This document shows positions 30,677 to 37,811 of a stretch of 46,766 nucleotides of DNA, piece after piece. How positions within the stretch are numbered: the stretch's first letter is position 1; every line of letters begins with the position of its first letter. Under the pieces are notes generated by a model. It was not told the origin of the DNA. It searched no databases and worked only from the letters and a program-made list of their open reading frames with translations. Both the position numbers and the translations under genes were made by a program. This DNA is from Candidatus Thermoplasmatota archaeon (lineage in GTDB: Archaea; Thermoplasmatota; SW-10-69-26; JACQPN01; JAIVGT01): assembly GCA_035541015.1 (NCBI GenBank), contig DATLFM010000055.1, positions 1 through 46,766 of the forward strand, read 5' to 3'.

Positions 30677-32092
30677 TCACGTCCGCGCGAAGGCGCCGCG
30701 GTAGCCCCAAATGTCCAGATCGTTCGACGAATCCCCGCTGCTGCGACCTTCCTGGTTGGGCTTCGTGAGCATCCAGAAGAACGCGTCGCCGTGCACGGAA
30801 GACCCTTCGTAGTCTCCGTGCTCCAGCCAGCCGTCGTCGTCCGTGTCCGCGTCGTACGCCGGCCCCAACGCGCGTTCGGCACGCACCGAAAGCGCGGCGG
30901 GTTCCAGCCACACGAGCGTGGGTGTCGCCACGTCGCCCGAAAGCGCGAGGTGGAAGACGGCCACGCCCCCGTCCGGCGCGGCAGACAGGCTCGGCTGCGC
31001 CGCGGAGGCAAGATACGTCGCGCGCGGCCACGTTGCACCGCCGTCGTCGCTTGCCGCCACGCACACGCCGACGGGCCGGCCTCGGTCGTGGACGGCCGCG
31101 CCCACGTATCGCGTCGAGCTCGCCGCGGCTCCGTTTGCATAGCCGAATCCCCCGCCCGCCGGCGCACCTGGGCAATCTTCGTAGCGGAACTCCGACCGTC
31201 GCCAGGGTCCGCCAGGCTGTCCGGAGAACTGCCAAAGGCAGCGGCCCGACACGAACGGTCGCGCGCCAGGCGGGGTAGCGTCGCAGCCGTACGCCGACAC
31301 CACGAAGTCCCCGGACGAGTCCCACATCGCGTGAACGAGGTAGTTGGCCGCACCGGCGGCCAGCAGGCCTGCGTCGAGATCCTCCGGCAACGTCCACGTG
31401 CGGCCGCCGTCCTCGGAGAACACGGCGACGAGCGAGAGGCGCTGCGCGGCGCCCGTGTAGGCGGTCCAAGCGGCGCCCAGCCGGTGGTTTTGCGGATCGT
31501 AGGCCGTCCATTGGCGATCGTGGAACGTTCCCGCGATCCCGCCGGCGCCCAGCGCCATGACGTTTGGCTCGCCGGGGCCCCGCTCGTCCACGATCGCATG
31601 GAGAAGGCCGTTTGTCGTCCCGTACCCCGGGCCTCCGCAACCGATGAACATCGAGGTGGCGTGCACCCGCCCGTCCCGGTCGATCACGGCCGTGGGATCG
31701 AAGGTCCAGCACGCCATGGCCCACCTCGAGCCCGGCGGTGCGTTGTCGGCCGTGGGAAGGACGATCCGCGTCCAGGTCTCGCCGCCGTCCCGCGAGAGGG
31801 CGACCACGTTTCGCAGAAGCCCCGGAAGGATCGGTTCGGTGGCCGTGCCCGTTTGCGTCACGGGCATGCGCGTCCGCTCGTTGAAGGCGACGGCGATGAC
31901 GTTGGGATCCTTCGGGGAAATCGCCGAAGCGCCCTCGCGCTCACGCAAGTCTCCTGCCGACACGGGGCGGGGCGCGAGAACCGAGAGAAGCTCGGGCGGT
32001 TCGTGAGAAGTCGAATCGTCGCCCGCCGGATGTTCGATCGGCCCCACGCATCCGGCCAAGAGAACAAGAACGATCCCCGCGGTTGCGCGCAT
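30677..32092 (-). CDS. Asp-box (BNR) repeat lipoprotein
   Basis: 471 residues from ATG 32092. Lipobox VLLAGC with Cys15, so anchored outside the membrane. At least three Asp-boxes are clear: ALSRDGGETWTR, FSEDGGRTWTLP and ASDDGGATWPR, giving a predicted six-bladed sialidase-like propeller. A calcium-like loop DADTDDDGWLEHGDY lies near the C terminus. No catalytic Arg triad or Tyr/Glu pair of sialidases could be identified, so a binding or structural role is more likely. It shares the blade type with the large protein at the left end, but the two are not alignable overall by eye. Confidence 0.82.
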   Translation of the reverse strand: MRATAGIVLVLLAGCVGPIEHPAGDDSTSHEPPELLSVLAPRPVSAGDLREREGASAISPKDPNVIAVAFNERTRMPVTQTGTATEPILPGLLRNVVALSRDGGETWTRIVLPTADNAPPGSRWAMACWTFDPTAVIDRDGRVHATSMFIGCGGPGYGTTNGLLHAIVDERGPGEPNVMALGAGGIAGTFHDRQWTAYDPQNHRLGAAWTAYTGAAQRLSLVAVFSEDGGRTWTLPEDLDAGLLAAGAANYLVHAMWDSSGDFVVSAYGCDATPPGARPFVSGRCLWQFSGQPGGPWRRSEFRYEDCPGAPAGGGFGYANGAAASSTRYVGAAVHDRGRPVGVCVAASDDGGATWPRATYLASAAQPSLSAAPDGGVAVFHLALSGDVATPTLVWLEPAALSVRAERALGPAYDADTDDDGWLEHGDYEGSSVHGDAFFWMLTKPNQEGRSSGDSSNDLDIWGYRGAFART

Positions 32093-32206
32093 GCCGGCCG
32101 AACGAGACGCGCCTGCCTTAACCGTTCGCGTCGTGTTCTTCGATTCCACGACACGTCCGGCAAGCTTCGCTTGCCGTCCGCGACCTGGGCCAAGACGGAC
32201 GTCGAG

Positions 32207-32992: not shown

Positions 32993-34732
32993 TCACCGGA
33001 CCCTGTAGTAGGTCCGGTTGAGGAAGAATTCGTACGTCTCGCGGCGCTCGCTCCACAGCTTCCAGTAGGCCAACGCAAAGAACGTGATCTCAAAGGACGC
33101 GATCGTCAGCCACCACGTCATCCACGCCAAGAGCGTGTTGTCCAGCCGTTGCATGGCCAGGAGCAGGCCGTTGATGGGATCGAAGGCGGGGTTGGCGGTG
33201 ACAAGCGGCGCGGCGCCGATGCACAACGGGAACGTCCAGATGGGCTGCTGGCACCCGTGGAACAGGTAGAACGGCAGGAACGGCGTCCAGTCGCCGATGT
33301 TGTACATGAGAAGCCCGATGAGCAGAAGGAAGAGGACCGCGCCGATGGCCGCCGCGCGAAGGGCCGTGTAACCGAGCACGCGCCAGCGCAGGACCGCGAA
33401 CACGAGGGGAAGCGGAAGCGTCCAGAAGAGAATGGCCGGAATGCCCGCAAGGGTGCTTCGGACGCCAGCGAAGTGGAGCGCACCGTCGCCGTCGCGAACC
33501 ACGCGCGAGGGCTCGCTGAAGGCGGCGCCGGGAACGCCCATCGTCGGGGGGCGGAGGTCGTTGCCGTCGAAGCCCCAGCGCACGACGTCGCCCGAAAGGA
33601 CGCCCAGCGACGTAAGGTTCTCCATCTCGGAGGTCGCAAGCGCGCGGTCGACGACGCGGACGTCGTCGATCGTGCCGGCGAAGTAGGCCTTCACCTGGCC
33701 GGCCGCCGCCGGTCCGTTGCCCAGAAGCAGCGGCGCGCCAGTGCGCGTCACGGACCCGGCGACCTCGAGGCGTTCCAGGGGTTCGCCGTCGAACCAGCCC
33801 GTGAACGTCGTCCCGTTGTACGTGAAGGCGAACGTGTGCACGCCCGAATCGCGCAGGTTGCCGGCGGCGATCGTGTGGAGCGTGGAGACCACGCGCCCGT
33901 TGCGCGTCTCGTCGAGCCCAAGGCCAAACTCGATCGCGTTGGACGACAGGACGCGTATGTAGTATGACGCGGCGCCAGCCTCCAGCGCATCCGCTTTGGA
34001 GAGGATCCACTTCGTGTTGCCAAGCTCCTCCACGGAGACGGTGGCGGACACGGTGATCTCCCGCATGCCCGAGAGCGCCGGGTCGTCGGGCAGATAGGCC
34101 CCGTGCGCGGGACGCGGCGTGAGGTCGTACAGCGGCGCGCCCCATACGGGGTACTCGTTGTAGACGACGTTGTTCACGGAGAACACGCTCACCATGAACA
34201 GGAAGACGATGAGGGCGACGCCAAGGCCCGCCTGGAGGGGCGCCTCCTGGGGGCGGCGTGGGTTGCCGCGGTCGATGAAGGGAAGCAGGACGAGCGGCAC
34301 GACCAGGATGCCGTTCAGGATGAGGCCGATCGTCTTCGCGTCGAGCACCACCGTCGTGCCCGGATTGACGAAGCCGTGGACCTCGGAGAGGCCGGGCACC
34401 TCCCAGGGCGTCGCCTCGCCGATGGGATTGGCCACGCCGGGCTTGAGAAGCCCGTAGGACCAAAGCAAGTACCAGTCGGGCAGGATGACCTCGGGCTGGC
34501 CGGCCGGGTTGGCGGGGGCTTCGAGGAAGTAGGGCATGGCCGCGGAGATGTACAGCGTGCCCGCGACGAAGAACAGGATGAGGGCCGTGTCGCGCATGGC
34601 CTCGTGCGGCCAGAACGGCTGGGCCTCCACCGTGCGGAGACGCTTCTTGGCGCGGCGCTCGCCTTCGATCCTGCGGGCCTCCTTGAGGTACTCCTCGGTG
34701 AGTTCCCCCATCGAAACGCGCGCGCTTGCCAT
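32993..34732 (-). CDS. Cytochrome b C-terminal subunit (subunit IV-like) with inserted LamG-like domain
   Basis: 579 residues, far longer than subunit IV (about 160) or any cytochrome b C-terminal half. N-terminal part: helices at about 47-69, 132-155 and 165-190, with PDWY at residues 85-88 in VILPDWYLLWSYGLLKPG, a variant of the PEWY quinol-site motif. Residues about 205-425 form an extramembrane insertion whose core (about 222-390) looks like a concanavalin/LamG sandwich: SGVHTFAFTYNGTTFTGWFD, GAPLLLGNG, FAGTIDDVRVVDRALATSEM, then VVRWGFDGND. Four or so helices follow, ending in WWLTIASFEITFFALAYWKLW. Its start overlaps the cytochrome b N-terminal gene end within three bases. Confidence 0.8.
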   Translation of the reverse strand: MASARVSMGELTEEYLKEARRIEGERRAKKRLRTVEAQPFWPHEAMRDTALILFFVAGTLYISAAMPYFLEAPANPAGQPEVILPDWYLLWSYGLLKPGVANPIGEATPWEVPGLSEVHGFVNPGTTVVLDAKTIGLILNGILVVPLVLLPFIDRGNPRRPQEAPLQAGLGVALIVFLFMVSVFSVNNVVYNEYPVWGAPLYDLTPRPAHGAYLPDDPALSGMREITVSATVSVEELGNTKWILSKADALEAGAASYYIRVLSSNAIEFGLGLDETRNGRVVSTLHTIAAGNLRDSGVHTFAFTYNGTTFTGWFDGEPLERLEVAGSVTRTGAPLLLGNGPAAAGQVKAYFAGTIDDVRVVDRALATSEMENLTSLGVLSGDVVRWGFDGNDLRPPTMGVPGAAFSEPSRVVRDGDGALHFAGVRSTLAGIPAILFWTLPLPLVFAVLRWRVLGYTALRAAAIGAVLFLLLIGLLMYNIGDWTPFLPFYLFHGCQQPIWTFPLCIGAAPLVTANPAFDPINGLLLAMQRLDNTLLAWMTWWLTIASFEITFFALAYWKLWSERRETYEFFLNRTYYRVR

Positions 34733-34733
34733 G

Positions 34734-35576
34734 CTAGTGGGGCTCCGCGATTCCCTGCAGCCAGACGATCACGAGGTGCACGACGATGAGGCCAAAGGCG
34801 GCCGCGGGGAGAAGGAAGATGTGCAGCACGTACATGCGGGTGAGCGGGACGTTGAGCGCCGGATTGAAGGCCGTGCCCCCGAACAGGATCGCTTGCAAGT
34901 ACTTTCCGATGATCGGCGAGGCGGCGCTCATCTCAAGCCCGATCGTTCCCGCCCACAGCGAGAGCTGGCTCCACGGCAGCAGGTATCCCGTGTACCCGAG
35001 CAAGATGGTGACGCCAAACAGGCCCAGACCGACGAGCCAGTTGAGCTCGCGCGGCTTCTTGTAGGCCTGCGTGAAGTACACGCGCATCATGTGGAGGAAC
35101 ACCGCCGCCACCATGATCATGGCGCTCCAGAAGTGGATGGAGCGCAGCATGTAGCCGAAGGGAACCTCGGTCATGATGTAGATCACGCTTGCCCACGCGA
35201 CGGAAACGTTCGGATCGTCCCAGCCGGGCGCGGGGGCTTGGCTTGGCACGTAGTAGAGGGCCAGCAGCACGCCGGACACGACGGCGACGAGGAAGGCGAG
35301 CAGCGAGACGGATCCGAGGCTGTAGAGCGGGTACCAGTACCAGATGCTGCGCAGCTTGTACTTCTCCGTGTGGCTGCGCGGGAGCGCGAGGTTCATCTCG
35401 TAGTAGAAGTCCTTCATCACGTCCGTGTAGTCGCGCAGCCGGAAGCGTTCGTCGAGCCAAGCGAACGCGGCGAGCATCATCTTCTGACTCGGCGTCACGC
35501 GCCGAACGGGCCGCTTGCGGCCGATGCGGGGAGCGTCGACCGTCACGTTTCCCGCTTGGGGGGATTCAGTGGCCAC
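34734..35576 (-). CDS. Cytochrome b N-terminal half, b6-type
   Basis: 280 residues from GTG 35576. Binds two b hemes in the quinol-oxidising complex. Axial histidines are His148 and His162 in IHFWSAMIMVAAVFLHMMRVY, and His252 and His267 in VLHIFLLPAAAFGLIVVHL. The second pair is separated by 14 residues rather than 13, the spacing of cytochrome b6 rather than bc1 (established family rule). The conserved GYTGYLLPWSQLSLWAGTIG precedes it. The longer N-terminal region (1-75) is basic and cytoplasmic. GTG was chosen because upstream sequence is low-complexity and overlaps the Rieske gene; the overlap with the Rieske stop is 11 nt. Confidence 0.9.
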   Translation of the reverse strand: MATESPQAGNVTVDAPRIGRKRPVRRVTPSQKMMLAAFAWLDERFRLRDYTDVMKDFYYEMNLALPRSHTEKYKLRSIWYWYPLYSLGSVSLLAFLVAVVSGVLLALYYVPSQAPAPGWDDPNVSVAWASVIYIMTEVPFGYMLRSIHFWSAMIMVAAVFLHMMRVYFTQAYKKPRELNWLVGLGLFGVTILLGYTGYLLPWSQLSLWAGTIGLEMSAASPIIGKYLQAILFGGTAFNPALNVPLTRMYVLHIFLLPAAAFGLIVVHLVIVWLQGIAEPH

Positions 35577-36441
35577 CGGCGTCCCCTCCTCCAGGCGCGG
35601 CGCTCTCGCCGATGAAGTAGTCGCCCTTGACGAGAACGGGATCGTACACGCTGAAGTGGCAGGTGCAGAACACCTTGCTCCAGAAGCCTTGCGTGCGCGC
35701 AAGCGGCGACTCCTGCCAGCCGGGAACGCAGCAGAAATGCTTGCAGAAGCTGATGCAGGCCATGAGGACCGTGCCGTCGCCAAGGTCGACGTACATTCCC
35801 TCGGCGGCGCGCTCGAAATGCTCGGGTCCAAGCGGCCAGGGGCCCGGCGTGTACGCAAGGGCACGCCGGCGCATGCGCATGACGATGCCGGTGATGATGT
35901 TCTTGCCCGTCTGGCCCTCGCTTCGCCAGCGGAACCCCGCGCCGTAGCCGACGTCGCGGAAGTCGTCCACCCGAATGTCCTCGCCGATGCGGTCGCGGTA
36001 CCAAAGCTCGATCCCGGCCGACTGCGTGGAGGCGATCTTTTCGGGCAGCAGGAAGTACTTCAGGTGGTTGTCCGAGCGGAAGGTGGAGGAGAGGCCCGGC
36101 GTATCCTCGTGCCCGCAGAACTTGTACCAGTCGAGTACGCTGCCGATGCGAGCGCTCCATTCCGGATCGTCGGAGCCAAAGTCGGGATCGCCAAGGACGA
36201 CGCCGTCCTCGACCTTGAGGGGGATGAGGGGCAGCCCCTGCGGGGCCGGACCCGAGACAAGCGTGTTGCCGATGTAATGGAGCCGCCGCACGGGCGCGTC
36301 GCGCGTGATGAACGAGGAGTTGACGAGCGCGCCCACGCTGCCTGCCGCGGCCACGCCGGCGGCCGCAAGGAGGCTTCCCTTCACGAAGGAGCGGCGGCTG
36401 ACGCCCTGCTCCGGTTCCGGGATCTCGTCGATGTCGACCAT
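35566..36441 (-). CDS. Rieske iron-sulfur protein with Tat signal
   Basis: 291 residues. Twin-arginine signal SRRSFVKGS (15-23) followed by a hydrophobic helix, which also anchors it. The Rieske 2Fe-2S boxes are near the C terminus: Cys233-Lys-His235 in CISFCKHFCCVPGW and Cys259-Thr-Cys261-His262 in FCTCHFSVYD. Ligands are Cys233, His235, Cys259 and His262, with Cys238/Cys261 as the expected disulfide. The region between anchor and boxes (about 50-210) is larger than in typical Rieske proteins and contains WYRDRIGEDIRVDDFRDVGYG, suggesting an extra domain. It transfers electrons from quinol to a downstream acceptor. Confidence 0.92.
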   Translation of the reverse strand: MVDIDEIPEPEQGVSRRSFVKGSLLAAAGVAAAGSVGALVNSSFITRDAPVRRLHYIGNTLVSGPAPQGLPLIPLKVEDGVVLGDPDFGSDDPEWSARIGSVLDWYKFCGHEDTPGLSSTFRSDNHLKYFLLPEKIASTQSAGIELWYRDRIGEDIRVDDFRDVGYGAGFRWRSEGQTGKNIITGIVMRMRRRALAYTPGPWPLGPEHFERAAEGMYVDLGDGTVLMACISFCKHFCCVPGWQESPLARTQGFWSKVFCTCHFSVYDPVLVKGDYFIGESAAPGGGDAGGH

Positions 36442-36448
36442 GGTTCCT

Positions 36449-36736
36449 CTAGAAGTCCTCGAACTTCTTTCGCCGCTTCTTCACGATCAAGAGGTCCGGC
36501 AGGAAGAACCGCCGGTACAGAACAAGGATGACAGCCGTGATGGCAAACACGTTGGCAAGCCAGAACGCCAGCACCTGCTGATCCACCGGCGTGTTCCACT
36601 TGGCCACGAAGCTTCCCCACAGGAAGAGGAGCACGAAGATCGCGTCGAGCGCCGCCAGGACGACGATGGCCGCGGCCACCGAGAGCGGCTCGGGAGCGGG
36701 TTCGTAGCGGACGATCTCGCCGGCTTCCTTGGCCAT
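36449..36736 (-). CDS. Small two-helix membrane protein of the respiratory operon
   Basis: 95 residues with two hydrophobic helices (about 18-44 and 56-76) and a strongly basic C terminus, VKKRRKKFEDF, that places it in the cytoplasm. Seven bases from the Rieske start and six from the anchored protein end, so in the same operon. No cofactor motif. A role as a small accessory subunit is inferred only from its position, comparable to other single- or two-helix subunits of quinol oxidases. Confidence 0.65.
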   Translation of the reverse strand: MAKEAGEIVRYEPAPEPLSVAAAIVVLAALDAIFVLLFLWGSFVAKWNTPVDQQVLAFWLANVFAITAVILVLYRRFFLPDLLIVKKRRKKFEDF

Positions 36737-36742
36737 GGGTCG

Positions 36743-37780
36743 TCATCCCTCGCGCTCGCGCTCGGTCTCCGAGGCGGAGGGTCGGATGCGCGTAACGGCG
36801 TAGTAGACGCCAAGGATCATCGTTCCTGCGAGCGTGGCGACTCCCACGAACAGCAGGAACGTGAAGCCTTCCAGGCTGCCGGCCGCCACGACGTCCCGGC
36901 CCCACAGCTGCCAGGCCGCGTAGCCGGCAAACGCGAGGACCATCGCGCCGACGGTCCAGCTCGTCCAGTCGCGGGAGGCTTCCTTGCGAGCGGGAGCCTT
37001 GTCCTTGGCGGCCCGGTCCTTCCACGCGGCCCAGTGCGCGCTCTCTCCGTACCGCAGCACGAAGAAGGTGATCGCAAGCACGACGAAGAGCACGATGAAG
37101 CTCACGACGCCGACCCAGTAGGCGAAGAAGTTGACGCCAAGCTGCGTGAAGGCGTGGATCGGATCGTGCGCCTCGACGGCTCCCAAGCGTTGCGCGCCCA
37201 TGGAGAGGAAGCTCAAGCGGTTCCAAAGGTCGTCGGGATCGTTGCCGTTGATGCCGTTCACCGTGTTCACGGTGAGCGTGAACTGGACGTCGGGTCCCGG
37301 CTGCGCCGGACTTTCCCATTGGAGCCGGAAGACCCGGTCGGCTTCGCGGTCGCCGCGCGCGGTGTGCGTGGCCTCGTGCCCGCCTTCGACGACTTGGACG
37401 AAGGATGCCTGCGCGGAATCCCCCGGCGGAAGCAGCGTTCCGCCGGTCACGTGGAGGTGGAAGCCGCCCGTGTTGGCGCCCTCGCGGGGTTCGGGACCCC
37501 CCTGCATGCGGATCGTGATCTCGTAGCGGCGCTGCTCGTAGGCGCCACCTGGCCCGACGGGTACGTAGAAGGGGGGAACTCCCTCGAGGACGGCCGCCAC
37601 CTCGGGGCTGGGAGAGGGGTTGTGGCACGAGCAGCCGCCGGCCATAAGCGAGGCGGTGCCGGGATCCAGGTTGCCTTCGTGAACGCCGGAGGATCGGCTT
37701 TGAACGTCGGCGAAAACGCCAAGGAGCAAGCCCCCAAAAAGGACCAGCGAGAACGCGATTTTGAAGCGCGAACCGACCAT
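36743..37780 (-). CDS. Membrane-anchored protein with GCSCH motif (choice-of-anchor V/Reeler-like)
   Basis: 345 residues from ATG 37780 (GTG 37789 in frame is an alternative). Signal anchor at 5-25, then an exported beta-rich domain starting with GGCSCHNPSPSPE (Cys50, Cys52, His53), YEITIRMQGG and GGFHLHVTGGTLLPPGD. GC(S/T)CH plus a Reeler-like beta-sandwich is what I recall for choice-of-anchor V domains. It is not a canonical CxxCH heme c site. Three membrane helices follow at about 215-245, 275-297 and 308-335. It heads the respiratory operon with a TATA-like box at 37812-37822. It may stand in for cytochrome c1 as the outer partner, which is inference. Confidence 0.75.
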   Translation of the reverse strand: MVGSRFKIAFSLVLFGGLLLGVFADVQSRSSGVHEGNLDPGTASLMAGGCSCHNPSPSPEVAAVLEGVPPFYVPVGPGGAYEQRRYEITIRMQGGPEPREGANTGGFHLHVTGGTLLPPGDSAQASFVQVVEGGHEATHTARGDREADRVFRLQWESPAQPGPDVQFTLTVNTVNGINGNDPDDLWNRLSFLSMGAQRLGAVEAHDPIHAFTQLGVNFFAYWVGVVSFIVLFVVLAITFFVLRYGESAHWAAWKDRAAKDKAPARKEASRDWTSWTVGAMVLAFAGYAAWQLWGRDVVAAGSLEGFTFLLFVGVATLAGTMILGVYYAVTRIRPSASETEREREG

Positions 37781-37811
37781 GACGGCCACGTCGACCGCGC
37801 ATGCGGGTGGC

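Follow-up and report, generated by a model that had tools for sequence, protein, structure and literature searches.

Core cytochrome b subunits are usually regarded as compact and architecturally conserved, and the known topology of cytochrome b puts both the PDWY loop and the G-H junction outside the cytoplasm, on one side of the membrane. The haloarchaeal petABD/petABC complexes are reported to be b6f-like and to have halocyanin as the probable electron carrier (PMC8305020). The window, i.e. the whole 46,766-nucleotide stretch of Thermoplasmatota DNA that was analysed, encodes a b6f-like complex in which a LamG-type domain lies inside the cytochrome b C-terminal subunit, PetD. The LamG insertion in this respiratory core subunit is what is new, so far from one genome; a literature search for LamG with cytochrome b or bc1 in archaea found no report.

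Operon and type of the complex

The genes of the operon are given below in their order of reading.

36743-37789, minus strand: protein with a choice_anch_V domain, transmembrane helices and a GCxCHN motif; candidate electron acceptor subunit (domain match, operon slot)
36449-36736, minus strand: DUF7318 small membrane subunit (Pfam)
35566-36441, minus strand: TAT-exported Rieske-like iron-sulfur protein, CKHFCC ... CTCHFS (NCBIfam, motifs)
34734-35600, minus strand: cytochrome b N-terminal half, PetB type, start codon not fixed (Pfam, His spacing)
32993-34732, minus strand: PetD-type cytochrome b C-terminal subunit with an inserted LamG domain, 579 aa (open frame; Pfam Cytochrom_B_C and Laminin_G_3)

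The PetD frame lies 1 base behind the cytochrome b N-terminal half, downstream of the choice_anch_V, DUF7318, Rieske and cytochrome b genes, and the same gene order was found in most of the relatives examined. The histidines of the cytochrome b haem helices are spaced by 14 and 15 residues. H348 and H363 of helix D are the pair with a distance of 15, a spacing that marks the b6f type. The frame at 32993-34732 is the PetD of a b6f-like Rieske/cytochrome b complex. In common with b6f, including its PetD/subunit IV, and with haloarchaeal petABD, the complex has a split cytochrome b, the PDWY/PEWY loop, helices E, F and G, a Rieske partner, the b6f-type histidine spacing and no c1, and residues 8-205 of the subunit align with a Halospeciosus PetD at 36% identity. 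The Thermoplasmatota protein differs by two additions between helices G and H, a transmembrane hairpin and the 220-aa LamG insert. A search confined to the operon found no cytochrome f or c1 gene; therefore, the complex is filed as b6f-like, haloarchaeal-type, and not as b6f or bc1 proper.

The acceptor slot, held here by the choice_anch_V protein, is taken by a plastocyanin-like cupredoxin in two sister lineages (L024:9917-11437 and L026:9178-9981). The host genome has three cupredoxin hits, with cupredoxins on contigs C51 and C19, and a haem-copper oxidase. The GCxCHN motif of the choice_anch_V protein is invariant in four homologues (36743-37789 and those of L023, L031 and L032). The motif differs from the canonical CxxCH and may mark a metal or haem site that has so far escaped recognition. 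A BNR/Asp-box repeat protein with a lipoprotein-like N-terminus is encoded at 30677-32149 on the minus strand.

Fold and form of the inserted domain

The PetD frame is divided into the following parts, all on the minus strand.

34154-34609, minus strand: helices E, F and G with the ef loop of the cytochrome b C-terminal half, residues 42-193 (Pfam, hydropathy, AF2 helices, alignment to six relatives)
34469-34480, minus strand: PDWY motif, residues 85-88, equivalent of the PEWY of the quinol-oxidation site (sequence; alignment; PEWY of b6f subunit IV)
33452-34114, minus strand: inserted domain, residues about 207-427 (alignment with L022, the same-family relative without the insert)
33626-34096, minus strand: LamG core, Laminin_G_3, residues 213-369 (Pfam; AF2 beta-sandwich; Foldseek to CBM40 and pentraxins)
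33464-33586, minus strand: putative displaced N-terminal LamG strands, VVRWGFDG ... DGALHFAG, residues 383-423 (tandem-array alignment; profile against shuffles; low AF2 confidence)
33293-33451, minus strand: extra transmembrane hairpin, residues 428-480, within the class only here and in the same-family relative (alignment, hydropathy, AF2)
32996-33178, minus strand: last helix (H) and the conserved C-terminal YExxLNxxYYxVR, residues 519-579 (alignment, AF2, motif search)

The 579 residues are encoded by a single open frame, which passes the Pfam cut-offs for both families. Cytochrom_B_C (PF00032) matches residues 73-186 with 38.4 bits (E 1.5e-9, cut-off 20.7 bits), and Laminin_G_3 (PF13385) matches residues 213-369, after helix G and ahead of the last helices, with 52.6 bits (E 7.2e-14, cut-off 27.6 bits). 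The PDWY motif is part of the ef loop, which joins helices E and F; it is conserved across the aligned relatives and is the counterpart of PEWY in b6f subunit IV. The initial annotation, made from the letters alone, had described an insert of the LamG/concanavalin type, about 220 residues long, between the PDWY-containing part and the remaining helices, and had proposed a domain search and a structure prediction. The domain search agrees with this description, as does the alignment with the same-family relative, which places the insert between about residue 206 and residues 428-436.

The AlphaFold2 model of residues 195-432, calculated from a 20-row alignment, is a beta-sandwich with a pTM of 0.72 and with core blocks that mostly have a pLDDT of 72-95. 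Foldseek comparison of the insert model with the PDB returned CBM40 and pentraxin matches with E values of about 1e-7. The likeness to these proteins is that of the concanavalin A-like beta-sandwich, although the identity of the insert to them is only 11-20%. The insert is thus confidently predicted to be a ConA-like beta-sandwich of the LamG type. The full-length model, run on a trimmed alignment set, has helices at residues 42-70, 132-156 and 164-193, the sandwich at 226-361 and further helices at 430-450, 454-478 and 519-578. The pTM of this model is only 0.38, which makes the placement of the domain against the membrane part unreliable, and the model therefore holds no reliable information on how the LamG domain is seated there. 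From the known cytochrome b topology, the ef loop with PDWY would be outside, helix F would run in and helix G out, and the insert that follows would be extracytoplasmic, in agreement with the outer face proposed initially. The sole two cysteines of the subunit, residues 494 and 504 (33221-33253, minus strand), are in the outer loop before helix H; they are absent in the same-family relative and could possibly form a disulfide.

The insert shares the Pfam family, the fold and the motif GTIDDVRVxDRAL with the Laminin_G_3 domains of large secreted archaeal proteins, and the units of tandem LamG arrays align across the whole of it. However, the PetD insert is a single domain within a membrane respiratory subunit and is possibly circularly permuted. 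WxFD and ALxFDG strands are common in full-length LamG units, outside the core of the Pfam model, and many tandem-array units open with WxFD ... ALxFDG ahead of the core. No strands of this type were found before residue 213 of the PetD, and the insert begins past the usual first strands. The segment VVRWGFDG ... DGALHFAG (residues 383-423) comes after the last strand, and in the alignment with tandem arrays it falls on the opening of the following unit. A profile made from 15 natural N-terminal segments gave this segment 3.8 bits, more than 1980 of 2000 shuffles and more than all other windows of the protein tested; the segment had been spotted by eye before testing, and the 1% from the shuffles is therefore optimistic. 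Rotating the insert gave no gain in score against Pfam or against a home-made whole-domain LamG profile, and a pairwise alignment test of the permutation gave a z of about 1.7. Thus, the case for a permutation comes only from the tandem-array alignment and the N-terminal-strand profile, and we lean towards it slightly.

An ordinary, unpermuted LamG domain, its N-terminus lost or degenerated and its C-terminal side extended by a long linker, has close to an even chance. Such a domain would agree with the low AF2 confidence at residues 378-411 (pLDDT below 50), with the unchanged whole-domain score and with the weak pairwise result, and some natural LamG units likewise have no WxFD part. However, WGFD and GALHF follow the last strand in the canonical N-terminal order and spacing, and they align with the tandem-array units. 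The permuted and the unpermuted domain are alternatives of form only, and the latter would be compatible with a docking or shielding role.

Occurrence of the insert and the interval between helices G and H

PetD was found in all seven of the examined genomes of the class, and its LamG domain only in this one. The sole same-family genome examined, L022, has a PetD that corresponds to residues 92-206 and 436-579 and joins these two parts by a short linker where LamG would be; the N-terminus of this protein is cut by a contig end. The homology stops at about residue 206 and restarts at about 428-436, leaving an insert of about 220 aa. The extra transmembrane hairpin is common to the two proteins and was not seen in the other members of the class. 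No second LamG-bearing PetD was found in 390 genomes of the phylum; the LamG domains that the insert retrieved there were all distant and mostly belonged to long open frames. When a PetD fragment was used to scan the GTDB r220 contigs, 28 loci were obtained, and no LamG match was present in their PetD frames. A contig scan with the full-length protein found no relative, and tblastn of the insert against phages gave no match.

The initial annotation had set an assembly chimera, absent in relatives, against a genuine insert. The absence from relatives was indeed found, but a chimera is not indicated by frame, codon usage or composition. The GC content of the insert is 0.698 (flanks 0.677 and 0.636), its GC3 is 0.891 (flanks 0.930 and 0.903) and its codon-adaptation-like index is 0.79 (flanks 0.84 and 0.76); the GC and the codon usage of the insert resemble those of the flanks and the host. 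No repeats were found at the insert junctions, and the PetD insert is the only LamG domain found in the host genome. A chimeric or mis-binned sequence would be in keeping with the draft state of the assembly (114 contigs, contamination estimate 1.85%) and with the presence of the insert in no second genome. However, both junctions are in frame between flanks of matching composition and codon use, the junctions have no repeats, the genome has no other LamG that might have been joined wrongly, and in the same-family relative the two flanks are present and separated by no more than a short linker. An assembly error appears unlikely from these sequence features, and we give a chimeric or mis-binned origin very little weight.

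A mechanical motif search, with two loci left out, was used to measure how far the C-terminal YExxLN lies from the end of helix G. This interval is 40-66 aa in most of the PetDs measured, 155 aa in the same-family relative, 183 aa in L105, 376-386 aa in the f17-type proteins and 379 aa here. The PetDs of families f17 and f25, whose hosts are presumably marine Poseidoniales, are fused to HdrD-like FeS domains and resemble the present subunit in that a large ectodomain occupies the p-side interval between helix G and the C-terminus. However, their ectodomain is not related to LamG, and their proteins end in the FeS domains. Homology between the insert and the f17 ectodomain was rejected, with an hhalign probability of 0.1% and no relation; therefore, the similar interval lengths are a coincidence of independent insertions. 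By these sequence comparisons, other PetDs have independently enlarged the G to H interval, most notably with an unrelated ectodomain. Together, the LamG case and the unrelated Thermoplasmatota ectodomain indicate that the archaeal PetD G-H junction takes whole domains on its outer face, and the junction is a concrete place to study acceptor recognition or surface attachment in archaeal Rieske/cytochrome b complexes that have no c1.

Other unusual frames were seen among the loci. At L031:5878-8691 and the other f17/f25 loci, PetD is fused to HdrD/GlpC-like FeS and CCG domains, and the ectodomain is roughly 230 aa long, probably extracytoplasmic and without a Pfam match. The PetD-like protein of L105:625-2139 has additional hydrophobic stretches in the segment that separates helix G from the C-terminal YEFKLN, after which comes a 4Fe-4S-like cysteine motif. 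The cytochrome b frames L029:1423-4692 and L030:413-3610 are about 1070-1090 aa long with a match confined to the last quarter, the remainder being a long N-terminal extension or an unannotated frame.

Possible roles of the LamG domain

The best explanation, which we regard as probable, is a b6f-like PetD that gained first the hairpin and then LamG for lineage-specific docking or shielding. In this lineage, the transmembrane hairpin would have entered the p-side G-H junction first, and a single LamG-type beta-sandwich would have followed; the latter may have been excised out of phase from a tandem LamG array, which would have left it circularly permuted. The domain would fold outside the cell membrane beside the Rieske/quinol-oxidation face and would presumably not be a redox module. 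It may offer this lineage a docking or shielding surface, either towards cell-wall glycans or towards a partner anchored in the membrane, for instance a halocyanin or the choice_anch_V subunit. Because of the LamG family and its place in the subunit, docking or shielding is the most likely role of this insert, which is carried by a single genome. A doubtful version of this role is a permuted LamG domain, recruited to the G-H junction, on which a cupredoxin or a surface polymer docks and is kept at the quinol-oxidation face.

The domain could also be a non-adaptive passenger without a specific partner, brought by recombination into an outer loop that tolerates it. The single occurrence and the varied insertions accepted by the G to H interval would fit a passenger; however, the retained frame and the host-like codon usage suggest an old, maintained insert, and the core has kept the LamG consensus well (E 7e-14). 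We consider a passenger rather unlikely.

The initial annotation had also raised the replacement of a missing cytochrome c1, which was not upheld. With no gene for cytochrome c1 or f, the operon itself would be consistent with a LamG domain that substitutes for either as an electron carrier. However, no cysteine was found in residues 207-427, and hence no CxxCH or other cysteine-based haem site; the insert therefore has no c-type haem, Fe-S or type-1/CuA (blue-copper) site, and Foldseek gave no match to a redox fold. A separate operon subunit is a cupredoxin in the sister families, cupredoxins are encoded elsewhere in the genome, and haloarchaeal petABC is reported to pass its electrons probably to halocyanin (PMC8305020). 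Given these other acceptor candidates and the haloarchaeal precedent, no replacement of c1 is needed, and a LamG electron carrier is highly improbable. With LamG as a docking or shielding surface, electrons would flow by the usual route, from quinol to the Rieske protein and on to the acceptor.
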